64,000 nucleotides of DNA. Source: Rheinheimera mangrovi. GTDB lineage: Bacteria > Pseudomonadota > Gammaproteobacteria > Enterobacterales > Alteromonadaceae. Under the pieces are notes generated by a model that was given only the letters and a program-made list of their open reading frames with translations, did not search any database and had not been told where the DNA came from. A program made the translations under genes and the position numbers. How positions within the stretch are numbered: position 1 is the first letter of the stretch; each line of letters begins with the position of its first letter. Positions 4,947 to 62,629 of the stretch are shown one piece after another. The stretch lies in NCBI RefSeq assembly GCF_003990335.1, contig NZ_CP034683.1, forward strand, positions 1,130,501 through 1,194,500. Reading direction: 5' to 3'.

Positions 4947-6080
4947 TTAAAACACCAGATCTACGCCAACAACCAGTACGCTGTCTTTACGATCAGCAGT
5001 TTTATTGTCTGCATTGGTATATTGAGCTTTAAAAGCAGCAGAAGGGTGGAAGTCATACCGCACACCGACGTTGATGCTGTTGCGTTCAGTCTCCAGACTG
5101 TTTACTAAGCCTGCAACAGGAGCAAAGATAGGTGAAGCCGTTGGTACACCAGCATAAATTTCAGTTTTAGCTTTGTTGTCTTCTTTTTCAAAAGACACAT
5201 AAGGTGTAATAGTGTCAAAGCGGTGACCAATAGAAATGTAATAGGATTCCTGATCAGAGATAAAAGAGTCGTTTACTGTGGCTTTGGTAATTTCAGACAC
5301 CACCAGCCAATCATTTTTGTCGATGTTAAAACCAATGCCGGCAAAAGAACTTGATTCATCCACTATATCTAGATCTTTAGCCAAAGCACCCAAACCAAAG
5401 CCAGTTAATTGCGCATACAAGCCTGCAGGACTATCCAACTGATCGACATAAAACGTGGTTTTACCTGTCAGATAAGCCAGACGGAATGAATACCCATCCT
5501 GACCTAATTCCCAGGCTATCCCGGTAATATTTTCAATTTGTGCATCTGCCGCTGAACTGCCTATAGCAGCATCACCGTCGTAACTACCGACAATAAACTG
5601 CAACGATGAGTCGAAGTTACCTAAAGTGGTGGTGTGGTACAAAGATGCACCTTCGATATTATCGAAACCTAAGCCGTAGACACTTTGTGGCACGCGTGAC
5701 CAGTCATAGGCATAACCTACATCACGAAAATCTGAGTATTTATAAAATGGAGTTCTTAAACGGCCTGCATTGACGCGCAAGGTATCGGTTAAATCATAAC
5801 TTAAAAATGCCCACTCAAATTTAACATCCCAGTCATCAGCTCCACGACCTAACAGCTGAGCTGTCACCGACAGTTTATCGCCTAAGTCAGACTTTACCTG
5901 CAGTGCGGCTAAACTCTCGTTTTTAAAGCTGAAATCATCGTCGTAGCCATAAAGAGTGTCGTCGTTACTTAGCGCCATGCCGCCTTTGATCGAAGCAAAA
6001 CCATTGATGTCGATTTCAGCATGGCTGGTACCACACAGGGTTGCGGCAATGGTGGCTGCCAGTATTTTACGTTTTAACAT
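4947..6080 (-). CDS. Outer-membrane porin-like beta-barrel protein
   Basis: A 377-residue protein with a Sec signal ending near SHA-E (residue 21). It has alternating amphipathic strands throughout and a C-terminal Phe (VVGVDLVF), the usual BAM recognition end of an outer-membrane beta-barrel. Sections such as LRVNAGRLRTPFYKYSD resemble porins of the phosphate-selective/DcaP-like type. The start is supported by a GAGGA ribosome site seven bases upstream. It is first in a probable three-gene unit with the small PstS-like protein and an MCP. Specificity cannot be read; no trimeric-porin PEFXG motif was seen. Confidence 0.78.
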   Translation of the reverse strand: MLKRKILAATIAATLCGTSHAEIDINGFASIKGGMALSNDDTLYGYDDDFSFKNESLAALQVKSDLGDKLSVTAQLLGRGADDWDVKFEWAFLSYDLTDTLRVNAGRLRTPFYKYSDFRDVGYAYDWSRVPQSVYGLGFDNIEGASLYHTTTLGNFDSSLQFIVGSYDGDAAIGSSAADAQIENITGIAWELGQDGYSFRLAYLTGKTTFYVDQLDSPAGLYAQLTGFGLGALAKDLDIVDESSSFAGIGFNIDKNDWLVVSEITKATVNDSFISDQESYYISIGHRFDTITPYVSFEKEDNKAKTEIYAGVPTASPIFAPVAGLVNSLETERNSINVGVRYDFHPSAAFKAQYTNADNKTADRKDSVLVVGVDLVF

Positions 6081-48290: not shown

Positions 48291-49919
48291 ATGAATAAGT
48301 TAGTAACCACTCTGGCTTTGAGTCTGGTTTTTACCGCCAGTGCCGCTGAGCCGGCATTAGTACAAACCGACTTTAATGCTAATTTTGCCCGCTATTTTGA
48401 AAAAGTAGCGTCGGATGAAATGCAGGGCCGTGCTCCGGCTACTGAAGGTGAAAAGCGCACTGTCGCTTACCTTGAAACTGAATTTAAACGTTTAGGTTTA
48501 ACGGCATACAAAGAAGGCAGTTACCGTCAGGCTGTGCCAGTGGTACAAATTGATCCTGTGGCGGTTTCCAGCATGACCTTAACTGGCGATAAAACCGCTG
48601 CTAATCTGGTGTACAAAACTGACATGATGGCCTGGTCAACCCGCATGCAGCCAGAAATTAAGGTCGAAAACAGCGAGATGGTATTTGCCGGTTACGGCAT
48701 AGTGGCGCCTGAATACAACTGGAACGATTACAAAGATTTAGATGTAAAAGGCAAAACAGTGGTGGTGCTGGTAAACGATCCGGGTTTTGCCACTCAGGAC
48801 GAAAAACTTTTTACCGGTAATGCCATGACCTACTACGGTCGCTGGACTTACAAATATGAAGAAGCAGCCCGTCAGGGCGCAGCCATGCTGTTGATAGTGC
48901 ACGAAACTGAAGCCGCCAGTTATGGCTGGAATGTGGTCTCTGGCACCAGCCCAATTCGGTTTGAACTGGCCAATGCCAATAAAAACATGCACAAAGCTCA
49001 GGTGGAAGGCTGGTTATCTCTGGACGCTGCCGAGCGTTTATTTGCCGCCAATGGCAGTAGCTTAAAAGAGATGAAAGCCAAAGCATTAAAGCCTGATTTT
49101 AAGGCGATACCACTGAATGCCAAAGCCAGTATCAGCATCAAAAACAACCTGCGCGAAATCGACTCCAATAACGTGATTGGTTTTATCCCTGGCAGTAAAA
49201 AGCCGGATGAAGCTGTAATTTATATGGCGCATTGGGACCATTTTGGTCTGGATTTCAGCCGCAGTGATGACAAAATTTTTAACGGTGCTCAGGATAATGC
49301 CGGTGGTATTGCCGGTTTATTAGCGCTGGCTGAGAAATTTAAACAAGGCCCTGCACCAGAGCGTTCCATCGCTTTTGTGGCCGTTACCGCAGAAGAACGA
49401 GGTTTGTTAGGTTCACGCTGGTATGCTGAACATCCCCTGTTTCCGGTCCATAAAACCGTAGCCGGTATCAATATGGACATTATGAATGTCTACGGCCCAA
49501 TGCGTGATGTGATGGTATTTGGTTATGGCAGCTCAGAGCTGGAGCCTATTCTGGCTAAATATGCCAAAGCGCAAAACCGCTACATAGCACCAGAACCTAC
49601 ACCACAGGATGGTTTTTATTACCGCTCAGACCACTTTAATCTGGCGAAAAAAGGCGTACCTATGCTGTATGCCCGTGGTGGTATCGACAGTGTCGCCCAT
49701 GGTAAAGACTGGGGCCTGCAGCAACGCAAAAACTACGTCACGGACTACTACCACAAGGTGAACGACGAGTTTGATCCGAACTGGGATTTACGAGGTTCAC
49801 AGCAGGATTTATTCCTGTTTTATCAGGTAGGTTTAGAGGTGGCGAACAGCCAAAGCTGGCCTAACTGGTTGCCCGGTAAAGAGTTTAAAGCGATACGGGA
49901 TAAATCGCTGCAGCCTTAA
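48291..49919 (+). CDS. M28 family metallopeptidase, copy 2
   Basis: A 542-residue paralogue of the preceding gene, sharing most motifs word for word: MAHWDHFG-like zinc His, GAQDNAGG, VTAEERGLLGS, NMDIMNVYG and YRSDHFNLAK. It differs in using an ordinary Sec signal (MNKLVTTLALSLVFTASA) instead of a lipobox, so it should be soluble in the periplasm or secreted. It also has YVTDYYHKVNDEF where copy 1 has VCCYHKAADEF. Tandem duplication with altered localisation is the simplest reading. Its AAAGGAA site lies inside the terminator's U-tract tail. Confidence 0.92.
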   Translation: MNKLVTTLALSLVFTASAAEPALVQTDFNANFARYFEKVASDEMQGRAPATEGEKRTVAYLETEFKRLGLTAYKEGSYRQAVPVVQIDPVAVSSMTLTGDKTAANLVYKTDMMAWSTRMQPEIKVENSEMVFAGYGIVAPEYNWNDYKDLDVKGKTVVVLVNDPGFATQDEKLFTGNAMTYYGRWTYKYEEAARQGAAMLLIVHETEAASYGWNVVSGTSPIRFELANANKNMHKAQVEGWLSLDAAERLFAANGSSLKEMKAKALKPDFKAIPLNAKASISIKNNLREIDSNNVIGFIPGSKKPDEAVIYMAHWDHFGLDFSRSDDKIFNGAQDNAGGIAGLLALAEKFKQGPAPERSIAFVAVTAEERGLLGSRWYAEHPLFPVHKTVAGINMDIMNVYGPMRDVMVFGYGSSELEPILAKYAKAQNRYIAPEPTPQDGFYYRSDHFNLAKKGVPMLYARGGIDSVAHGKDWGLQQRKNYVTDYYHKVNDEFDPNWDLRGSQQDLFLFYQVGLEVANSQSWPNWLPGKEFKAIRDKSLQP

Positions 49920-50167: not shown

Positions 50168-50258
50168 GATTTGAGAAATGATAAAAAAATGCCTCGAAGG
50201 TCTGCTGTGTTTTGACCGGGAAGGTGTAATAAAACCACGACAAGGGGAGAAGAAGCTC

Positions 50259-53087
50259 ATGTTTAAGCGATCCGTCTTAAGCAGTGCGGTGTCTATGGCT
50301 TTAGTTCTGTTAAGCCAGCCAGTTACTGCAGCGCAAGAAGATAACAAAGCAACAAGTGTAGAAATTATTGAAGTCAAAGGCATCAGAGGCAGTTTGAATA
50401 AAGCGCTTGATGTAAAACGTCACAACGAACAAATTGTCGATGCCATAGTGGCGGAAGACATAGGTAAATTCCCGGACAACAATGTCGTCGAGTCGCTGCA
50501 ACGAGTCACTGGTGTTCAGGTGACTAACCGCGGTTCAGGCGAAGTATCAGCTGTATCTATCCGTGGTTTAAGCGACATTACTACGACTGTGAATGGCCGT
50601 AATATATTTACTGCCGCAGGTACAGCAGTTGCATTACAAGACATTCCTGCCAGTTTGTTAAAACAAGTTGATGTCTACAAAACCCGTTCTGCCAGCCAGA
50701 TTGAAAGTGGTATTGCAGGCTCCATCGATGTAAAAACGCACAGACCTTTTGATTTTGACGGCGCTAAGTTTATTGCCACAGCCCGTGGTATTTACACCGA
50801 GCAAAATGAAGAAACTAACCCGACTTTAAGTGCGCTTGCCAGCAATAACTGGGAGTTGGATGCAGGTCGCTTTGGTGCTTTAGTCAACCTGTCATTTTCC
50901 CGCATGAAATACCGCGATCAAAGCGTCACAGCCGGTGCTATGGTGCCTTTTATGACAGCTAATCCTACAGCGCCTTTTACGCCATACGAGCGTATTTTCC
51001 TTGATAAACCTGGTGTGGCTGAAAATCCAATCTGGCAACCTGGCTTGCTGAATGGTTTGCCATCTGCCAGTGGTTCCACTTTAAATGTGAATGGTGTTGC
51101 TACGCCTTATATCCTGGGTCGAGATGCTATTTTCCAGAGCGACTACAACGGTAAACGTGAGCGTCCTGCGGCCAATATCTCTTTGCAGTTTGCGCCAAAT
51201 GATAAATCGGAATATGTGTTTGAGTCATTTTATAACGGTTTCCGGAACGAAGGTTTTAACAGTCTGCTGTTCTCTTTTGCTGACTGGTGGGGCAGTTATG
51301 GCGGCATGACGCCAGCTCAGGCTGCAGCCTCTGCCAACGTGGTTTTGCATCCTGGTACTAATATTGTCAAATCCCGCTCAGTGAATGACCCTTGGGTCTT
51401 TACCAGTGGTGATTTATCTACAGGTAAAACTGACAGTTATCTGCATGCTATTGGCGGCAAGTGGGAATTGTCTGATGAAATGACGCTGAAGTCTGAACTG
51501 GTGTATCAGGATAGTGAATACAGCAGCGACTTTTTTGCCATGCGTTTTGTACGTCCCGGCAATAACTACAAACTGAATGTCGATTTTAACGAAAACGGCG
51601 GTATACCTGGCTTCAACTTTGAAGACAATCCGGCAACCGCCGCTGTGGATGAATCCAGTATGGCCGATCCGTCAGCCTATCTGACTGATAGCATGTATGA
51701 CAATGCCAACAGCGATGTGGGTGACGCAGTAACTTTTACTTCAGATTTAACTTACGCTCTGGATGGTTTCTTTACCACAGTGGAAACTGGTGTGCGCTAT
51801 GACAAGCGTGGTGCGACCACCTCTTTTAGTCGCCAGGACCGTTGTTGTGGTGGCGCTGTGAATGTCGGCACTGTTGACGGATTAGCTGCAATCAACAGTG
51901 GTTTTATGGATGGTGAAGCTAACGTACCTACCTCATGGGCTGTGGCGAATGGTCACTATATTCGTGATAATGCTGATCAATTCCGCACAATGTATGGCAT
52001 GAACAAGCTGAATTTACAGCGTTCTTTTGATATTGACGCCACTACGTTATCTTTGTATTTGCAGAGCAAATTTGAAACTGAAGTGGCCGGCCGTGTGTTA
52101 AACGGTGAAATTGGTGCCCGTTATACTGGCATAGACACAGATTCAATGTTTTGGCAGGAAAGCGCGCCAGGTGCTGTTCAGCCGTCGACTGCAGGCGAGA
52201 GTAAAACCCGTAAAATTTTGCCAAGCTTGTCTGCCCGTTATCAGTTAACTGACGATGTCCAGGCACGTGTGGCTTATACTGAAACACTGCGTTATCCGGG
52301 CTTTGGTGATTTAAATCCTTTGATCATCTACAACGAAGACGTAACAGGTATTGGTTATGGTACAGCGGGTGGCGGTAACCCTGACTTAAAACCAACTGAA
52401 TCACAAAACTATGATTTTTCACTGGAATGGTATTTTGCTGATGCCAGCTCGTTATACGGCACAGTGTTTAGACGTGATATTGATGGTTTTGTGGTGGGCT
52501 TCCGCCGTTCAGTAACAGCACCAAAATCTGCAACTGATCCAACGCCTTACAAATTCGTATTAACACAGCCATACAACGCTTCTAATGGCGAGTTGTCAGG
52601 TGCTGAAATTGGTTTAGTCTGGTTCCCTGACTATTTACCACAAGCATTGGATGGTTTTGGTGTGCAGGCCAGTTATACCCGCTTGTCGTCGCAACAAACT
52701 ACACCTGATACCAATAGTGAAGGCGAAATCACCGGCTACAGAGACACCGATCTGTTTGGCGTGTCTGATTCGTCTTACAGCATAGTGCTGGCCTATGACA
52801 AAAACGATCTGAATATGAGATTGTCTTATGCATGGCGTAAAGGGTTCCTGGCTAACTATGAAGCGGCTCTGTTTGCTAACCCGCTGGAAATGCGTCGTAA
52901 AGACGAAGCCAGCATGGACTTCCAATTAAGCTACAAGCTGACAGAACAGTTTGAGCTGACGCTGGACGGCACCAACCTGACCAACGAGCTGTATCAGAGC
53001 TACTATGGCAATGATGCAACCACAGGTAACTTTGGTACCGCCTTATACAGCCGTACTTTCGCCCTGGGCGTGCGTTACAGCATGTAA
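50259..53087 (+). CDS. TonB-dependent receptor (TIGR01782-like)
   Basis: A 942-residue outer-membrane active transporter. Signal peptide 1-24, a TonB-box-like SVEIIEVKGIRGSL at about 33-46, then the plug (IGKFPDNNVVESLQRVTGVQV, a hallmark of the Xanthomonas/Caulobacter-type TIGR01782 group) and a long beta-barrel ending RTFALGVRYSM. A CCGG segment (QDRCCGGAVN) occurs in a barrel loop. Members often import oligosaccharides or their degradation products. No partner sugar genes are adjacent. The ATG at 50259 with AGGGGAG spacing is preferred over the open-frame start 27 codons upstream. Confidence 0.93.
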   Translation: MFKRSVLSSAVSMALVLLSQPVTAAQEDNKATSVEIIEVKGIRGSLNKALDVKRHNEQIVDAIVAEDIGKFPDNNVVESLQRVTGVQVTNRGSGEVSAVSIRGLSDITTTVNGRNIFTAAGTAVALQDIPASLLKQVDVYKTRSASQIESGIAGSIDVKTHRPFDFDGAKFIATARGIYTEQNEETNPTLSALASNNWELDAGRFGALVNLSFSRMKYRDQSVTAGAMVPFMTANPTAPFTPYERIFLDKPGVAENPIWQPGLLNGLPSASGSTLNVNGVATPYILGRDAIFQSDYNGKRERPAANISLQFAPNDKSEYVFESFYNGFRNEGFNSLLFSFADWWGSYGGMTPAQAAASANVVLHPGTNIVKSRSVNDPWVFTSGDLSTGKTDSYLHAIGGKWELSDEMTLKSELVYQDSEYSSDFFAMRFVRPGNNYKLNVDFNENGGIPGFNFEDNPATAAVDESSMADPSAYLTDSMYDNANSDVGDAVTFTSDLTYALDGFFTTVETGVRYDKRGATTSFSRQDRCCGGAVNVGTVDGLAAINSGFMDGEANVPTSWAVANGHYIRDNADQFRTMYGMNKLNLQRSFDIDATTLSLYLQSKFETEVAGRVLNGEIGARYTGIDTDSMFWQESAPGAVQPSTAGESKTRKILPSLSARYQLTDDVQARVAYTETLRYPGFGDLNPLIIYNEDVTGIGYGTAGGGNPDLKPTESQNYDFSLEWYFADASSLYGTVFRRDIDGFVVGFRRSVTAPKSATDPTPYKFVLTQPYNASNGELSGAEIGLVWFPDYLPQALDGFGVQASYTRLSSQQTTPDTNSEGEITGYRDTDLFGVSDSSYSIVLAYDKNDLNMRLSYAWRKGFLANYEAALFANPLEMRRKDEASMDFQLSYKLTEQFELTLDGTNLTNELYQSYYGNDATTGNFGTALYSRTFALGVRYSM

Positions 53088-55139: not shown

Positions 55140-56258
55140 TTAGAGGATTTTTAAAAACTCAGTTAAAGCTTGTTGTTCTGCTTTGGTTAACTGTAGTTTT
55201 TGCAATAAAGGTGAGTGCTCTGGAAAGGGCGCAGCACCGGGCTGCAGGCCTTTTTTCGGCATTCTGGCTTTAAGGCCTGCATTATTATAAAACGCCACAA
55301 TACCTTCAAACTGGGTAAATAAACCATTGTGCATCCAAGGGCCGGTGTGAAACACAGCGCGCAAAGCTGGGGTGCGGAATTTACCTGAATCACTGGCGAC
55401 TTTGGTTTCCAGATAACGTCCTAAATCCTCAAAAGGTCTGCCGTAAAAATGCAGGCCTGTGACATGGAATTTATTATCAGACAGCAATGGCCCCTGATGG
55501 CAGTTTAAACAACGGGCTTTGGTGCGGAATAAATGTAAACCCAGCAACTGTTGATCGTTTAATACTGCGGTGCTTTTACTGTGCTTATGTGGGTCCTTAC
55601 TGTAAGCCGCTTCAAGGAACTCGTCGTAGGCTGTGCGTGGGGCTTTGATCTGCAGTTCAAAATAAGCCAAAGCATCAGCTAACTGCTCAGCATCGATCAG
55701 AGGGCTGTCATACACTTGCGAAAATAATGTCCGGTAGTGCTTCGACGCGTTTAGCTTTCTGACGGCATCTTCGATAGGAAGATCCATTTCTATAGGGTTA
55801 CTGATGGGCTGCAAAGCCTGAGCTTTTAAGGTTGCTGTGCGGCCATCCCAAAAGTAACTATGCCAGAGTTCAAGATTAAACAAAGCCGGGGTATTGCGAT
55901 TACCGGTTTTGCCCTGAACTCCTACAGCTGTGGTTTTTGCATCAGAAAACTGTAGTTTTGCATCGTGACAACTGGCGCAGCTGATGCTGTTATCGGCCGA
56001 CAACATCACATCAGAAAACAGCTGCTCACCCAGCTGATATTTTAATTGCTCAGTCTGACTTTGTGGTTTTGCTGTGGCAGGCAAAGGCGCTAGCTCTGCC
56101 CTGGTAACCTCTGAGTCCAGTTGAGCTTGTGGCCACTGAGCTACAGGCTGATTGTATAAAGCCCGCAGCTTGATCGTGTCGGTGCTGGCAATGGATAACA
56201 CTGGGTAAAGCAGTGCAGCTATAAATAACGTGTGAGCTGAGTTTTTAATAATAGTCAT
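55140..56258 (-). CDS. Di-heme cytochrome c peroxidase / MauG-like protein
   Basis: A 372-residue periplasmic protein with a Sec signal. Two c-type haem motifs are visible: CASCH (Cys94, Cys97, His98) and CLNCH (Cys250, Cys253, His254). RNTPALFNLELWHSYFWDGR, NPIEM and GKFRTPALR with MHNGLF are the standard bCcP/MauG family segments. Proteins of this kind either reduce H2O2 or oxidise a partner protein residue. The start is placed at the ATG at 56256-56258, inside the end of the upstream receptor gene (14-base overlap). It is last in the lipoprotein-receptor-peroxidase operon, so its substrate may be that receptor's ligand. Confidence 0.92.
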   Translation of the reverse strand: MTIIKNSAHTLFIAALLYPVLSIASTDTIKLRALYNQPVAQWPQAQLDSEVTRAELAPLPATAKPQSQTEQLKYQLGEQLFSDVMLSADNSISCASCHDAKLQFSDAKTTAVGVQGKTGNRNTPALFNLELWHSYFWDGRTATLKAQALQPISNPIEMDLPIEDAVRKLNASKHYRTLFSQVYDSPLIDAEQLADALAYFELQIKAPRTAYDEFLEAAYSKDPHKHSKSTAVLNDQQLLGLHLFRTKARCLNCHQGPLLSDNKFHVTGLHFYGRPFEDLGRYLETKVASDSGKFRTPALRAVFHTGPWMHNGLFTQFEGIVAFYNNAGLKARMPKKGLQPGAAPFPEHSPLLQKLQLTKAEQQALTEFLKIL

Positions 56259-58959
56259 ATGAAATTCCAATCCAGAACTGGCGTCCTATTTCTACACCGT
56301 TGGCCCCAGGCAGTATTTGATGCGTGCGACTGTCAAACAAATTGGTGATATCGGCACTTAGTGCCAAATTGCCAGTAGCAGATTGATAAAGTTGATAGTT
56401 AACAGCCAAATTCACCAGCGTAGTGCCGTCCAGTCGCTTTGTGCTGTACACAGGAACCAATACTGAGCCGGAGCTGCATTCAGGGCATAACCAATTGGTG
56501 TTGCCTGTGGTGTCGTAAGTCCCTGTGCCTACTGCTGCAGTGTAACTGGCTTTATAGGTTGCGGTCAGGCTACTGTTAAGCTTGTTTGTCCAATCGGATG
56601 ACCAGCCAAAATTCAGCACCAGTGGTCGGGCAAAATTGGTATTAATTCTGTTTAATGCATCCAGACTGGTCAGCTGGCCATCCAGAATCACCAGTTCATC
56701 TGCTGCTGTATTGTTGATATTTTCATCGAACTCATTTGTGCTGCTAAAAGTTTTACTGAAACTGGTATTCAACCAGAAGCTATGATCGTGCCACTGCTTG
56801 CTCCAGGCCAGCGATAGCCTATTACTGTAACCACTGCCGCTATTGCTTTGATACTTATAGAAATAGCCGTCACTTTCCCGCACTGGATCTGAGGCCGCGG
56901 CTAGCTGATCTTTTTTCCAGCGTTTTAGGGCTTTGATGCTAAAGGTACCAAAGTGTTCGGTATTTTGCTTAAAGCCTAAGGTGGCTTCATCGTCATAAGG
57001 TGTTTTTACATTATCGTACCTTACACGAGTATTGCTGTCGGCCGACGAGCGCAGCCATCCTTGCAGTGCACCGTTACGGATAGGCCTGTACTGCACATAA
57101 TAAGGCAGTTGTGCCTCTTTAATTTTGTAGCTTAGAAGACCTGCGTCGTAGTAGCGGTTCAGACCAAAAGTCAGCAAAGAATCCGCATCGCCAAATAAGC
57201 GATAACCAGCACTCAGACGGGGCGCCAGATTTTGATTTTTGAAAAAATTGTCTGTGCTGTAGCGCAAACCCAGATGCCAATCCCAATCGCCGGACTCGAT
57301 TTGGTCGGTCAGGTACAGCGCATTTTTCAGCACTTTTTCATTAATGAGTTCAGAAGGATACACTAGTCTGGATTCAAAGTACTGAGGTGTGCTACTGACG
57401 TTTTCGCTGTACAGCAGCATATCCTCAACCAGGCTTAAATCTAAGGGCCGCCCTAGTTCCTGCTCCAGCTCGGCCAGTGGCCGGACAAATTCAAGTTCAA
57501 CGCAGTCGTACAAGTAACCGTTGCAGTTCAATGGTGTTTGAGTGCTGGTATATTGTCGGGCAGCTGTGTAGTTATAACTGTCATAAAAACGCTGACGTTT
57601 TATTTGCTCAGACTCAATATCTATCCCAAGCAACAAGCGATGGTTCAGCCCTAGATAGCTCAAATCATTGAACTGCAGGCTGCTTTCCAGGCGGGCATTG
57701 TTTTGGGTTTTATCCAGATCGCCAAGGCCTCCTTGTTTAGATACAGGCGTGACAGAGGAATTCTGTACTTGATCCAGCTTGCCCCAGTCTTTGCCTTTGG
57801 CTTGCAGCCAGACGTAATAGTGATCGGCGGCATCTCTGCTGTTTTCGCTACCGCTATAGCTCAGTTTGCCAGACCACTGGCCTAATCTAAGGTCTTTAGC
57901 CAGGTGCAGTGCTGTGCTGAAACCTCCACCTTCGACCACAAACTCGCTGTCTTTGACGTTCGTTTGTATGTTGTGATTTTTGTAAGGGGCGTAGGTGGCG
58001 GTTAAATCGACGCGGTCCAGCCACAAATCCCGCTGCGAGTACTTCAGCAGCAGGTTGGTGTTTTCCCTTTGTGTCGCTACCATCTCACCTAAAGACAACT
58101 CACTGACCGTACTTTCCAGATAATTCAGATTGATAAGCAGCGCATGCTGACTGTTAAATTGATGGCTTGCTGATACACCGTAGCTATTTTTTTCAAACAC
58201 AGGCGCATCGCCGGTGCTGGCTGGGCTGACATTATCATTATTACCTGTGATCAGTTTGTAATTGCCCCAATCACTTTGAGTGCCGCGATAACTGATGCCA
58301 AAGCGATTTTGATCAAAAGCTGAGCGCGACTTCACATCGACCACACCACCAGAGAAATCACCAAAGTTAGCTGGAATATTACTGTCATAGACATCTATAG
58401 ATTCTACTAACTGACTGTTCAGGGTAAAAGCCTGGGCCGAGCCTCTTACATCATTGGCTTCATACAAAGCACCTGAACTTCCGCTTGGATCTAGTCTGCT
58501 GTTGTAATTGACACCGTCGAGGAAAAAGCCGGTTTGCCAGGGTTGGCCACCGGAAATGGATAGCTCTTTTGCCTGAATTTCTGCGGCCTGATTTAAGGCA
58601 TAGGCCGATTCTGACAGCTGTACACCAGGCATCAGGGCAATAAGCTCGTTAATATCACCTGTGGATTTTGGACTGCGCTGAATAAAATTGCGGTCCAAAT
58701 GATAACGCCCGACTATTTCAGGCTGTTCCGGGCCGGTATACCGTCCTTTGACTTCAATTTTTTCCATCACTTTAGTTTGCTGCAGGCACTGATGAACTGC
58801 AGCTGCTACTTTGCTTTGTTTCTGGCAAAGCACAATATCGGCTTCTTTTAGCTTGTAGTGGCGCATCAGTTGCTGTGTATCTGCAGTGCTGCTTTGTGCA
58901 TAGCCGTAACAAGAGGCGAATAAAGGCAGCAGCGCCAGTGGGCTATAACGATAGTTCAT
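56245..58959 (-). CDS. TonB-dependent receptor of an unusual type
   Basis: A 904-residue outer-membrane receptor with a signal peptide (about 1-21, ending YAQS). A short N-terminal segment (about 22-65: MRHYKLKEADIVLCQKQ and VAAAVHQCLQQTKV) with two cysteines precedes the plug. This is not an STN domain that I can recognise. The plug (about 68-215) contains STGDINELIALMPGV and GDFSGGVVDVKSRSAF. The barrel ends RQFWIGISYDYY with an aromatic C-terminus. CPEC in a barrel loop (WLCPECSSG) adds a Cys pair. It lies 20 bases after the lipoprotein stop and overlaps the peroxidase gene. Confidence 0.9.
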   Translation of the reverse strand: MNYRYSPLALLPLFASCYGYAQSSTADTQQLMRHYKLKEADIVLCQKQSKVAAAVHQCLQQTKVMEKIEVKGRYTGPEQPEIVGRYHLDRNFIQRSPKSTGDINELIALMPGVQLSESAYALNQAAEIQAKELSISGGQPWQTGFFLDGVNYNSRLDPSGSSGALYEANDVRGSAQAFTLNSQLVESIDVYDSNIPANFGDFSGGVVDVKSRSAFDQNRFGISYRGTQSDWGNYKLITGNNDNVSPASTGDAPVFEKNSYGVSASHQFNSQHALLINLNYLESTVSELSLGEMVATQRENTNLLLKYSQRDLWLDRVDLTATYAPYKNHNIQTNVKDSEFVVEGGGFSTALHLAKDLRLGQWSGKLSYSGSENSRDAADHYYVWLQAKGKDWGKLDQVQNSSVTPVSKQGGLGDLDKTQNNARLESSLQFNDLSYLGLNHRLLLGIDIESEQIKRQRFYDSYNYTAARQYTSTQTPLNCNGYLYDCVELEFVRPLAELEQELGRPLDLSLVEDMLLYSENVSSTPQYFESRLVYPSELINEKVLKNALYLTDQIESGDWDWHLGLRYSTDNFFKNQNLAPRLSAGYRLFGDADSLLTFGLNRYYDAGLLSYKIKEAQLPYYVQYRPIRNGALQGWLRSSADSNTRVRYDNVKTPYDDEATLGFKQNTEHFGTFSIKALKRWKKDQLAAASDPVRESDGYFYKYQSNSGSGYSNRLSLAWSKQWHDHSFWLNTSFSKTFSSTNEFDENINNTAADELVILDGQLTSLDALNRINTNFARPLVLNFGWSSDWTNKLNSSLTATYKASYTAAVGTGTYDTTGNTNWLCPECSSGSVLVPVYSTKRLDGTTLVNLAVNYQLYQSATGNLALSADITNLFDSRTHQILPGANGVEIGRQFWIGISYDYY

Positions 58960-58979
58960 ACAGAACCCTTTTCTAAGTG

Positions 58980-61766
58980 TTAATGAGTTGCAACCAAGGG
59001 GTTGAGATCTTCTGGATCGGCAATGCCATCATTATCCGCGTCGTTATCTGCAGTCAGGCCTGAAGCCTGGATCTGTTCAGCTGTGGCACTTAGCAGAAAG
59101 AAGTTAGGTAAACCGTCGTTGTCGGTGTCGACGTTTGCCACCGTAGTGCCGGGGAAATGATTTTGCAGTGCATAGTGAGTTGCGACTTCGGTGTTGAGAC
59201 TTACTTTTTCTGCAGCTGCTACCGCATCGGTCCGGATGATGGCCAAAGCTTGTTCACTCAAGTCAGACGCCAGATTTAACTTAATCTGGTTCTCATGCAG
59301 TTCCTGCTGTTCGTTAATGGAAAGCTCGGCAATCTTGGCATTGAACACAGAAACCCTTTGCTGTAATGCCTGATAAGCAGCTGGAATATCCACGGTTTTA
59401 GCTGTTGCTGAGGCGTAGCGCAAAGCCCTGATATAGTTACGCTGGTTAAAGGTTGTATCGATGTCAGTCGCTTTATACAGATCGCCGCTGTAAGTCAGCA
59501 GAGCTTTGAGTAACTCACTCAGTTGCTCCTGAGTGGGCGAGCCAGCCAGTAAGCTATCCAGATCCTGATAGGCTTTGGCCTGCAGATCGCCAGCTTGAGT
59601 ATAAAAACCTGCAGATGCCAGTAAACTGGCGGCATTGATCGAGCTGATAAAACGCTGTTGAGTATCGGTTAAAGAGGCCAGTAGCGATGTCAGTAACGTA
59701 GCGCTGCTCTGTGCTGTTTCAGTGCGGCCAGCCAATTGAGCTGTTGAAATCAGATAACGGTACCCAAGGATTGATTGTGATATATCCAGCCGTTTTTTGT
59801 CCGGATGGAAATACTGAGTGGCTATGCTTTCACAGTGCAGTGCCTGTTGGTTTGCTAATTCATCAGCTGCCATCTGCTGATAGGCCTTGACCAGACGATA
59901 ACAGCCATAACTGCCCAACATATAAGCGGCGCTGGAGCGCTCAGCAAAATACTCTTCCGAATTCAGCAGCGTTGAGGCTAACTGCATCAGTTCAAGCGCT
60001 TTGTCGCGATGTCCTGAATAAAACAGATCCCATGCTAAACCCGGATTGGCTGAACCATTTTCAAACAACACTGGGTAATAATCACGCAATCTGCTGTAAC
60101 TGGTTTTCAGCTCTGCCAGCACTGTTGCTGTGTCGTTGCCTGCTTGTAGTTTTTGTAATGCTTTATGCAAAGCAATGTCATTTTTAGCATTGGCCGTAGC
60201 AGTACCAGTGGCAGGCAAAAGTGATAATGGCAGGTTTGTGCTTAGGGTCGGATAGTGGTACTGAAACAAGCCTGCGGAAGATTGCAGTGGAAAGCTGTAA
60301 TAACCCAATGTGGCTGTCGCATAAGCGGATTTGCTGTAGCTGTAGTTGTTGTCGTAATTGGTGTCTGCATAAATAGCCAGAGTTTTAGCCAAGTACTCTT
60401 TGGTTTTTTCTACAGCGTTTATTTGTTGAAAACGCTCGGCCACATAGGATAAATGTAAGGCGCGGTACCTATACACTTTTTGGCCTCTATAGGCACCACT
60501 GGTTGGAATTTCATAACTGGTTTGTTCTGCCAGTTCGGCATAATCTTCAATAGCGCTCAACGCCTCCAGCCGATGAGCTTCGGTTGGCTCAGCCAGATAA
60601 TTGTCGATCAAGGCGTTGGTATTTAACTGGTAAGCAGTCAGAAAATTACCATAGATAGTGCTATAAACTTCGGTTTTTGAGGCTAAAGCAAAGCTTTTGA
60701 GTTGACTCATCAATGCAGCTGAGTCGCTTACTGCACCTGCCTGTCGGTAATATCTTGCCAAAGACATCATAAAACTAGCGTCGGCTGTGGTGATATTGGC
60801 TATGCCTTTTTCCAGCAATTTTTGGGTGTAAAGCCGTGAGGAAAGGCTCCGGTAGTGGTTACCCAGTGCCGTATTTCCGATTGCATCGGCATGAGTGGAT
60901 GCATTTCGGTAAGCCAGAGCCTGGGCTCCTGCTTCAGAGATCGCATTACCAAGGATTTCTTCAGCTTTGGACTGGAACCCTGCGATCAAATAGCCTGAGG
61001 CCAGCTCTGTATTGGCAGTGTCTTTGGCATTATCGTCTGGTAACTGAGCAATAACGTCTTCACTTTTCTTCAGATGAGAACTGTTACTGCTGTAGTAGTA
61101 ATTAAGTTTATCTGCGTTGGTGATATAGCTGGCTCTGAGTTCTATCTGCTGTGTTACCGGTGTTTCGATAATGCCGTCTGTAACCGCCACCAGAAAAGAG
61201 CCATCAATCATGCTGAGTACTTCAGGTGTATAGACAAATTCACCGGTAGAGCTGTTGATCTCTAAAGTGCCATTTTCCGGGCTACTGGCAAGGCTAAAGG
61301 TCAGAGCATCGCTATCCTGGTCAAAAGCTTCTATTTTTCCAGTGGTGATACCAGAGCTATTCACTATCACATTTGTACTGAGTATTTTTGGAATGTCATT
61401 TACATTGTGGATAGTAAATGTCAAATCAACTACAGCTCTGTCTTTGCCATCAGTGACAGACAATCTGACGTGGTCAGTGCCATGAAAGTCAGCAAATGGG
61501 CTGTAACTGAAATGGCCATTTTGTAGTAGCTGAAATACGCCGTTATTGGCCGCAGACTCAAGCATATAGGTTAAAGTGTCGCCGTCTGAATCCGTTGCTT
61601 CTGCCTGGGCGGTCAGCTTAGTGTCTTCATCTAGCGTGAACCTAAGTTCAGTATTGCCAAATGCAGGGGCTGAATTTGAATCTCCGCCACCGCAGGCAGT
61701 TAACACAGATAAAGCCAAGGCGACTACACTGATTTTTCTCAAGCTCAGGCTGATAACTTCATACAT
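58980..61766 (-). CDS. Large modular lipoprotein: Ig-like repeats, helical-repeat core, calcium-binding tail
   Basis: A 928-residue exported lipoprotein (lipobox VLTACGGG, Cys25). Two cadherin/VCBS-type repeats come first (about 32-130 and 130-215) with DSDGDTLTYMLE and DQDSDALTFSLA. Residues about 220-850 are almost wholly helical in short paired blocks of TPR or Sel1 character, for example MSLARYYRQAGAVSDSAALM. The C-terminus has two calcium-binding TSP3-like segments (DTDNDGLPN and DNDADNDGIADPEDLNP). No enzyme motif. It is first of the operon with the TonB receptor and the peroxidase, so it may present or process the ligand at the cell surface. I cannot name a family for the whole. Confidence 0.82.
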   Translation of the reverse strand: MYEVISLSLRKISVVALALSVLTACGGGDSNSAPAFGNTELRFTLDEDTKLTAQAEATDSDGDTLTYMLESAANNGVFQLLQNGHFSYSPFADFHGTDHVRLSVTDGKDRAVVDLTFTIHNVNDIPKILSTNVIVNSSGITTGKIEAFDQDSDALTFSLASSPENGTLEINSSTGEFVYTPEVLSMIDGSFLVAVTDGIIETPVTQQIELRASYITNADKLNYYYSSNSSHLKKSEDVIAQLPDDNAKDTANTELASGYLIAGFQSKAEEILGNAISEAGAQALAYRNASTHADAIGNTALGNHYRSLSSRLYTQKLLEKGIANITTADASFMMSLARYYRQAGAVSDSAALMSQLKSFALASKTEVYSTIYGNFLTAYQLNTNALIDNYLAEPTEAHRLEALSAIEDYAELAEQTSYEIPTSGAYRGQKVYRYRALHLSYVAERFQQINAVEKTKEYLAKTLAIYADTNYDNNYSYSKSAYATATLGYYSFPLQSSAGLFQYHYPTLSTNLPLSLLPATGTATANAKNDIALHKALQKLQAGNDTATVLAELKTSYSRLRDYYPVLFENGSANPGLAWDLFYSGHRDKALELMQLASTLLNSEEYFAERSSAAYMLGSYGCYRLVKAYQQMAADELANQQALHCESIATQYFHPDKKRLDISQSILGYRYLISTAQLAGRTETAQSSATLLTSLLASLTDTQQRFISSINAASLLASAGFYTQAGDLQAKAYQDLDSLLAGSPTQEQLSELLKALLTYSGDLYKATDIDTTFNQRNYIRALRYASATAKTVDIPAAYQALQQRVSVFNAKIAELSINEQQELHENQIKLNLASDLSEQALAIIRTDAVAAAEKVSLNTEVATHYALQNHFPGTTVANVDTDNDGLPNFFLLSATAEQIQASGLTADNDADNDGIADPEDLNPLVATH

Positions 61767-61796
61767 AACAAGGACATCCGGAAGAAAAAGATGCGC

Positions 61797-61825
61797 ATAA
61801 TAAATGCATTTTTAAATGAGATCAA
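61797..61825 (-). promoter_or_regulatory. Sigma-70 promoter of the lipoprotein-receptor-peroxidase operon
   Basis: On the minus strand: TTGATC (61820-61825), a 17-bp spacer and TATTAT (61797-61802). The -10 matches consensus at five positions, the -35 at four. The start codon follows about 30 bases later. Confidence 0.7.
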
Positions 61826-61831
61826 TTATCA
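61817..61831. promoter_or_regulatory. Fur-box-like site overlapping the operon -35
   Basis: TGAGATC-A-ATTATCA fits the Fur 7-1-7 dyad (TGATAAT-N-ATTATCA) at 11 of 14 positions, with the right arm perfect. It covers the -35 of the minus-strand operon, so bound Fur would block it. It also lies about 80 bases before the divergent ClpP-like gene. Confidence 0.55.
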
Positions 61832-61909
61832 TTAAGTTTTTAGAGGGTGAAGATTGATTTTATTGCAGCTTTTCAGAGGCGTCAGACTAAAGTCCGGGGA
61901 GTAAAGTAC

Positions 61910-62629
61910 ATGTTAAGTTGGAAAGCTGCAGCTGTTGTAGCAGCTGTGTTATCGCTGTCAGTTCCTGCTGATGCAAAGGTGTGGCTGGAGGCTGACACTC
62001 TTCATTACAAAGGACAAATTACGGCTCAGGATAATAACCATCTGATGCAGCTGTATCAGCAAGCCAAGAGCAAACCTAAGCGTTTAGTGATCCAAAGTGG
62101 TGGTGGGAACATCGATTTGGGGATGGACTTAGCCGACTTTGTGTTGCAGCAACAGCTGGATGTGGAAGTACCGGATTTTTGCTTTTCCTCTTGTGCTAAT
62201 TATGTTTTTGTCGCAGGAAAAACCAAATGGTTGGGAGAAAATGCAGTTTTAGGTTGGCATGGTAATGCTGCATCTGCACGCTGGCTTGATGCCGATATAG
62301 ACGGCATGGTGAAAGATTTAAAAGGGGAAGAACGTCAACAACAATGGCAGAAACTCAGAGCTCATTATGATCAGGTGATTGTAAAAGCGAGTCAAAGAGA
62401 AGCTTTGTTGTATCAACAACTTGGTGTTGATCCAGCCTTATTAACTCTGGGCCTGCAGCCTGAATTACGCAGGCTTGCAACACAGCAGCGTTACCGCGGC
62501 TGGACCTTTAACTCCTCAGTACTAAAGCAATTGGGGGTTAAATCTATCAATCCAGGTCGTGCAGACTGGCAGCCTAAGCTGCATCCGCGTTTTAAATTGA
62601 TGATTATTAATGAACTGAGCGCTTCCTGA
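61910..62629 (+). CDS. Periplasmic ClpP/crotonase-fold protein (SppA-like)
   Basis: A 239-residue exported protein with a signal peptide (about 1-22, ending ADA). The core has RLVIQSGGGNIDLGMDLADFV and CFSSCANYVFVAGKTKWLG, the strand-turn and SxxC patterns of ClpP-fold peptidases. The Ser of SSCAN is the probable nucleophile, and a His follows in VLGWHGNA. The ATG at 61910 with GGGGAG at proper distance is preferred over a GTG 21 codons upstream, whose product would lack an N-terminal signal. The gene is divergent from the Fur-like operon. Substrate unknown. Confidence 0.78.
   Translation: MLSWKAAAVVAAVLSLSVPADAKVWLEADTLHYKGQITAQDNNHLMQLYQQAKSKPKRLVIQSGGGNIDLGMDLADFVLQQQLDVEVPDFCFSSCANYVFVAGKTKWLGENAVLGWHGNAASARWLDADIDGMVKDLKGEERQQQWQKLRAHYDQVIVKASQREALLYQQLGVDPALLTLGLQPELRRLATQQRYRGWTFNSSVLKQLGVKSINPGRADWQPKLHPRFKLMIINELSAS

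Follow-up and report, generated by a model that had tools for sequence, protein, structure and literature searches.

A lipoprotein, a FusA/YddB-family receptor and a di-haem enzyme in Rheinheimera mangrovi: a candidate iron-linked protein-import cassette

Gene content of the locus

A 64,000-nucleotide stretch of the 4.63-Mb single-contig genome of Rheinheimera mangrovi (NCBI RefSeq assembly GCF_003990335.1, contig NZ_CP034683.1, positions 1,130,501 to 1,194,500; hereafter the window) carries a minus-strand run of three genes, spanning 61766 to 55140 in the list of open reading frames (ORFs), which encode in this order a large lipoprotein (LP), a TonB-dependent receptor (TBDT) and a di-haem enzyme (DH), considered here as a candidate protein-import cassette (Table 1). 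LP and TBDT are separated by 20 bases; the overlap of TBDT and DH amounts to 26 bases with the TTG start of DH and to 14 bases with an in-frame ATG at 56258, four codons on, which is the likelier start. An earlier reading of the letters alone (the first-pass annotation) had described three minus-strand genes with 20-base and overlapping junctions, and the ORF coordinates bear this out.

Table 1. Features of the LP-TBDT-DH run, in positions of the window
Feature	Position	Strand	Basis
LP, lipoprotein of 928 residues: signal peptide, lipobox, Ig/cadherin-like pair, alpha-solenoid, C-terminal DxDxDG repeats	58980..61766	-	ORF, Pfam, model, alignment
TBDT, TonB-dependent receptor of the FusA/YddB family, 904 residues	56245..58959	-	ORF, Pfam, solved-structure searches
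DH, predicted periplasmic di-haem enzyme of the CCP_MauG family, 376 residues from TTG (signal peptide by reading)	55140..56270	-	ORF, Pfam, NCBIfam
Fur-like box AATGATAATTGATCTCATTT, 47 bases ahead of the LP start	61814..61833	-	Fur-pattern scan
LP signal peptide, residues 1-25, lipobox LTAC (Cys25)	61692..61766	-	sequence reading
LP Ig/cadherin-like domain pair, residues 31-212	61131..61676	-	Pfam Big_9/Cadherin, model, alignment to cadherins
LP helical-repeat (TPR-like) core, residues 213-867	59166..61130	-	Pfam scan, model
LP best-conserved block DTDNDG...NFF...DADNDG, residues 877-924, candidate Ca2+ sites	58995..59138	-	LP alignment
TBDT Cys45-Cys58 segment, ahead of a TonB-box-like motif	58786..58827	-	TBDT alignment
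DH first haem motif, CASCH	55965..55979	-	DH alignment
DH second haem motif, CLNCH	55497..55511	-	DH alignment
DH Tyr328, whose counterpart in the DH of L043 aligns with MauG Tyr294	55287..55289	-	L043 DH against MauG, DH alignment

Conservation of the cassette

The gene content was compared across 22 loci with visible flanks (the window, G002, G031, G022, G028, G062, G060, two of G097, G096, L052, L053, L054, L055, G158, G116, G410, G311, G164, G149, G133 and G556); G173, whose contig ends just past LP (the matching TBDT begins another contig), was excluded, and a match in G163 confined to the C-terminal 59 positions was not counted as LP. A TBDT of a FusA-related clade adjoins LP in all 22 loci, divergently in G133. 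Of these 22 gene runs, 18 also include DH (G060 came via DH alone and is no free count for DH, the remaining loci having come via LP too), which is missing from the loci of Shewanella electrodiphila (L054), G158, G133 and G556, whilst an M16 protease is encoded in four. The first-pass annotation had proposed one conserved unit with a redox enzyme fixed to a specific receptor, and this near-constant, not rare, co-occurrence upholds it. As the LP-TBDT-DH arrangement is met again in distant genomes, among other neighbouring genes, it is not a product of chance.

Eleven stretches were taken for similarity to LP or DH, nine of which hold LP-TBDT-DH with order and strand unchanged; the remaining two, G036 and G084, have a more distant DH alone. 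One scan added Pseudoalteromonas gelatinilytica, P. shioyasakiensis, S. electrodiphila and Aliidiomarina sedimenti, full-length LP being present in just four of its 11 loci; an order-wide search contributed seven further loci with visible flanks, and a class-wide search contributed G556. A core profile of LP found matches (E at most 1e-10) in 14 of the 394 genomes searched in the order, and the TBDT clade (at least 1000 bits) was present in the same 14. The best matches below the clade reach 246 bits and lie in 20 further genomes of the order, none of which has an LP match; 16 of these weaker FusA-family matches, seen with short flanks (in some cases no more than a few hundred bases to a single side), include two with the start of an M16 protease gene, one with a DUF4920-PepSY pair and none with LP. 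Among 369 genomes of the class LP and TBDT share the same three, two of which the order-wide search had already given and the third being G556, where the pair (L129:7785-13736) lies outside the order. Each of these genome profile searches scored at most two or three candidates per genome, which may leave a further, weaker copy unseen. Closer to the window, G062, of the same family as R. mangrovi, carries the cassette, and full-length LP was found in two of 22 genomes searched within the genus, the unit therefore being patchy. In P. shioyasakiensis (L053:2957-12727) a single TBDT-DH pair stands between two different LPs, the second of them after DH, as if LP had been duplicated.

A receptor of the FusA/YddB family

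Pfam gives TBDT a borderline Plug domain alone (24.0 bits, cut-off 23.9), and its family had gone unrecognised in the first-pass annotation. Searched against all solved structures at E up to 1, the single sequence matches FusA (2.4e-54) and entry 6ofr, the structure of YddB (9e-40), and nothing else; a ten-sequence profile matches FusA at 418 bits (5.5e-124), in an alignment that covers plug and barrel, and YddB at 281 bits (1.8e-82), the next entry standing at 18 bits (0.0059). With matches of 418 and 281 bits against 18, membership in the FusA/YddB family can, on sequence comparison, be regarded as settled, and suggests an iron-bearing protein as the imported cargo. The ligand known for this family is such a protein, and not one at odds with the uptake role first proposed.

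The odd Cys-containing segment that had been remarked upon at the N-terminus of TBDT is real: a Cys pair is present in 17 of 20 TBDTs examined (a count that takes in L049, whose first Cys is residue 22) and missing from L042, L055 and L083, and the stretch of FusA aligned to it holds no Cys.

The di-haem enzyme

Two CxxCH motifs, the Trp of FWDGR and the Glu of NPxEM are kept in all 18 aligned cassette DHs, and the column of the second-haem ligand is Tyr in 18 of 18, where bacterial cytochrome c peroxidases (bCcPs) have Met. When the C-terminal part of the L043 DH is aligned with MauG, its Tyr pairs with the Tyr of the MauG FYN motif, numbered here as Tyr294. With a Tyr at this position DH would count as a MauG-type di-haem enzyme in the wide sense; the ligand Met of a classical bCcP is not found in DH. 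The best NCBIfam relative is MbnH, to which the window DH scores 163.8 bits (cut-off 362.85), with 141.5 bits to the MauG equivalog (cut-off 443.85), below the cut-off in both cases, and each of ten DHs scanned, from a ten-sequence alignment, matches the two models at 1e-10. Against solved structures the DH profile reaches 203 bits with peroxidases, 191 with the BthA entry and 149 with MauG.

The nearest relatives of DH outside the cassette, in G036 (L050:7367-11631) and G084 (L051:6662-11382), are long fusions with a lipobox-like start, as judged by eye, that of G036 with Lcl_C domains; both adjoin another lipoprotein-like gene, with no FusA-family receptor beside them, and possibly represent a surface di-haem system.

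Turnover of di-haem enzyme and protease

Where the cassette includes an M16 protease, its gene order varies: LP-TBDT-M16-DUF4920-PepSY, with no DH, in S. electrodiphila and G158; LP-TBDT-DH-M16-DUF4920-PepSY in G028; and M16-LP-TBDT-DUF4920-PepSY-DH in G410 (Pfam names were obtained for the L054 and G410 proteins, the others being named by similarity). The protease of S. electrodiphila resembles FusC (410 bits, with 165 for PqqL) and that of G028 resembles PqqL (276 bits, with 184 for FusC), FusC being represented by solved structures 6b03, 6b05 and 6brs; those of G158 and G410 were placed by similarity to the S. electrodiphila and G028 enzymes (87.7%, 48.6%). The HxxEH motif is kept in the proteases of S. 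electrodiphila, G028 and G158. On a midpoint-rooted tree of TBDTs the LP-paired receptors group together (99/95), and both protease loci without DH fall inside a 15-row group (99/99) that is otherwise DH-bearing except for G133, their exact place within the tree being weaker (81/73); the two loci with both enzymes (G028, G410) sit on separate branches. From the gene content of the 22 loci, receptor and lipoprotein emerge as a constant pair, with a processing enzyme that varies.

This turnover bears on an alternative in which the system imports a protein or peptide and DH is a peroxidase guarding the periplasm against peroxide from iron or haem release. The DH profile lies closer to peroxidases than to MauG, at 203 against 149 bits, and Grinter et al. 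(PMC6793856) note only an association between peroxidases and receptors. The Met position of bCcPs is however Tyr in 18 of 18 DHs, as in MauG, and in two loci a processing-type protease stands in the place of DH after TBDT, which agrees better with a processing role; a peroxide guard is considered unlikely.

DUF4920-like and small PepSY-like membrane protein genes are found together in four cassette loci and in a further FusA-family locus (L115, L054, L080, L044 and L082, beside the receptors), where an iron-reductase step is possible; in L042 a DUF4920-like gene (5270-5695) adjoins DH. Two further peptidases were considered and dropped: an M16 peptidase upstream in G002 (L041, 19-1941) as evidence, FusC and PqqL being absent among the 60 of 66 solved-structure matches listed, which are to other M16 proteins, and an S9 peptidase (L047, 12944-15469) as a protease partner, with no link shown.

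The lipoprotein partner

The lipobox Cys25 of LP is invariant in 15 aligned LPs. The structural model (mean predicted local distance difference test score, pLDDT, 86.6; core alone 89.2) has two beta domains and a long TPR-like alpha-solenoid; the Ig/cadherin-like pair provides the sole Pfam matches of LP, and no Pfam family matches core residues 213-867 at E up to 1. The DxDxDG block of residues 877-924 is a probable set of Ca2+ sites. The modules named at first pass (Ig-like, helical core, calcium repeats) are accordingly all found, calcium binding as a prediction. Cys622 and Cys645 are each kept in 14 of 15 LPs, and tyrosines 88, 224, 225, 259 and 505 are invariant in the same alignment. The LP of G556, from another family of the class, has a start unlike Ig domains, its match persisting from residue 217 on.

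LP would stand at the cell surface. It may instead be a periplasmic or inward-facing scaffold that gathers receptor and enzyme, a view with which two points agree: TPR-like solenoids commonly bind other proteins of their own cell, and the DH relatives of G036 and G084 are themselves fusions that open with a lipobox-like sequence. Stalks of the Ig/cadherin kind and calcium repeats are, on the other hand, usual in exported surface proteins, and LP precedes TBDT as tbpB precedes tbpA; a scaffold is unlikely.

The invariant tyrosines also enter into the comparison, made at first pass, with the copper system MbnT/MbnP/MbnH, by which the genes would form a copper or metallophore uptake set with DH modifying a partner Trp or Tyr, and for which the rank of MbnH as best NCBIfam relative and the matches of all ten DHs to its model may be cited. 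The window DH is well under the MbnH cut-off (163.8 against 362.85 bits) and no MbnP domain is matched in LP by Pfam or NCBIfam, the first-pass annotation having itself called LP unlike MbnP. At no alignment column do more than four of 15 LPs have Trp, which makes a partner Trp within LP unlikely, against the oxidised Trp once suggested if that is taken to lie in LP. LP and TBDT are moreover kept without a nearby DH in four of 22 loci, the receptor is of the FusA family and the promoter site is Fur-like. The methanobactin/copper reading was rejected on the MbnH cut-off, the missing MbnP and conserved Trp, and the receptor family, and is highly improbable.

Iron-linked control

Fur-like sites were scored against the Fur consensus, in a set of 22 LP upstream regions that differs slightly from the 22 loci (G173 included, G556 excluded, and L053 represented by one LP). 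Best scores are higher ahead of LP than ahead of 242 control genes (Mann-Whitney p 2e-9, with some controls sharing the LP intergenic region and related loci not being independent, both of which temper the contrast), a score of at least 11 being reached by 13 of 22 LP upstream regions and 15 of 242 controls. Four places in the whole genome lie within three mismatches of the canonical Fur palindrome, the window site among them, where the reversed pattern gives one; of the others, one falls in the gap separating a TonB receptor gene from a PepSY gene and one ahead of a DUF4198-like gene (names by reading). The LP-TBDT-DH run may be repressed by iron through the Fur-like site. The iron-linked uptake role suggested at first pass finds support in the analysis.

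Proposed function

On balance, the evidence tips slightly towards LP-TBDT-DH being an iron-repressed protein-import cassette that acts in three steps of capture, import and cofactor release. LP, as an outer-membrane lipoprotein, would capture an iron-bearing protein, its Ig domains serving as a stalk and its TPR-like solenoid as the binding surface; LP would hand this cargo to TBDT, which would move it into the periplasm with TonB energy; and the MauG-like DH would oxidise the cargo, which would give up its iron cofactor, as a counterpart to proteolysis by FusC in Pectobacterium. The computed support consists of the receptor family, the conserved gene linkage, the haem motifs, Tyr and Trp of DH, the turnover of DH with FusC- and PqqL-type proteases, and the Fur-like site. 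Capture, import and release offer the simplest account of a constant pair with a variable processing enzyme. The Tyr of DH is compatible with long-range, MauG-like oxidation of a bound protein; the reaction may instead be a reduction, or DH may serve in peroxide defence.

Several points weigh against this proposal. The two protease-only loci are near relatives and so represent one event, and in the stretches read (19.5 kb in G556) neither DH nor M16 protease is present in G133 or G556. No FusC-type gene lies among the immediate neighbours of the window cassette, the rest of the genome not having been searched for one. The overall score of DH is nearer to bCcPs than to MauG, which weighs against a firm MauG assignment, and LP could face the periplasm. 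As to iron control, the window site has 11 of 14 matches and is not a perfect box; three of the 22 LP upstream regions reach a score of only 9; the best match lies at or past the annotated LP start in eight of 22, which may reflect wrongly long ORFs or chance; and the fourth place in the genome (L095) lies by genes without an evident iron role (by reading) and may itself be chance. Grinter et al. furthermore propose reduction, not oxidation, of the cargo, and show no cargo for YddB, in the part of their article available (PMC6793856).

A more specific version of the import proposal, a protease-free oxidative iron piracy, is held as tentative and somewhat doubtful: a surface TPR-type lipoprotein would capture an iron protein, such as a ferredoxin or cytochrome from an alga or cyanobacterium, a FusA-type gate would import it whole, and a MauG-like enzyme would strip its cofactor by long-range oxidation, a task that M16 proteases of the FusC and PqqL kinds would share or take over in sister cassettes.

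Neighbouring genes

The genes left and right of the trio look unrelated to it. A GGDEF-EAL protein and another TonB receptor are encoded on the left, and the window's second TonB receptor gene, at 50178-53087 (plus strand, 969 residues), comes after an M28 peptidase gene (48291-49919), peptide uptake being possible. On the right is a divergent gene for 260 residues (61847-62629, plus strand) with weak similarity to Clp protease (E 0.028), which has in common with LP the intergenic region of the Fur-like site, and a similar gene holds that place in G002 (L041:7115-7948); an RND-type transporter (by reading) lies beyond it.

Relation to known systems

The first-pass annotation named the system as a candidate for an undescribed one, which, within the literature searched, holds for the cassette and the lipoprotein partner and not for the pairing of enzyme and receptor, since cytochrome c peroxidases beside FusA homologues without FusC were reported in 2019 by Grinter et al., who suggested that with such an enzyme the cargo can give up its iron cofactor and no proteolysis is needed (PMC6793856). 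That article shares with the window the same receptor family adjoining the same enzyme superfamily and anticipates part of the present proposal, and its survey includes a Pseudoalteromonas cluster, so that receptors of the TBDT clade may be in its table. The word "lipoprotein" does not occur in its main text, the LP family was not met in the literature search either, and no description of the three-gene cassette was found in the available part of PMC6793856. Set against that literature, what is new comprises the cassette with LP as its constant partner, the MauG-like tyrosine of DH, and the turnover of DH and M16 protease in one cassette, and this turnover offers a direct test of the 2019 suggestion on the role of di-haem enzymes beside FusA homologues.

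With MauG, BthA and MbnH, DH has in common two CxxCH motifs, the Trp of FWDGR and a Tyr at the position of the MauG haem-ligand Tyr; it differs from MauG and MbnH in falling below both NCBIfam cut-offs, in having no MbnP-like partner in view and in an overall score nearer to peroxidases. TbpB-TbpA and HpuA-HpuB, in both of which the lipoprotein gene comes first, resemble the cassette in placing that gene directly ahead of the gene for an iron-protein TonB receptor, a likeness that here comprises gene order and lipobox only, and LP has no sequence relation to TbpB or HpuA by Pfam. The closest parallels are Fus (FusA, FusC) of Pectobacterium and YddB/PqqL of Escherichia coli, which share the receptor family and M16 proteases of both types in sister cassettes, with a Fur-like promoter site as a possible further likeness, and from which the window cassette differs in lacking an adjoining FusC and in having a large lipoprotein and a di-haem enzyme. 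Fus is the best-known case in which a folded protein is taken up intact through a TonB receptor for its iron; the cassette offers a candidate second case, genetically simple and from environmental bacteria, with the addition of a lipoprotein partner that none of the loci seen lacks.

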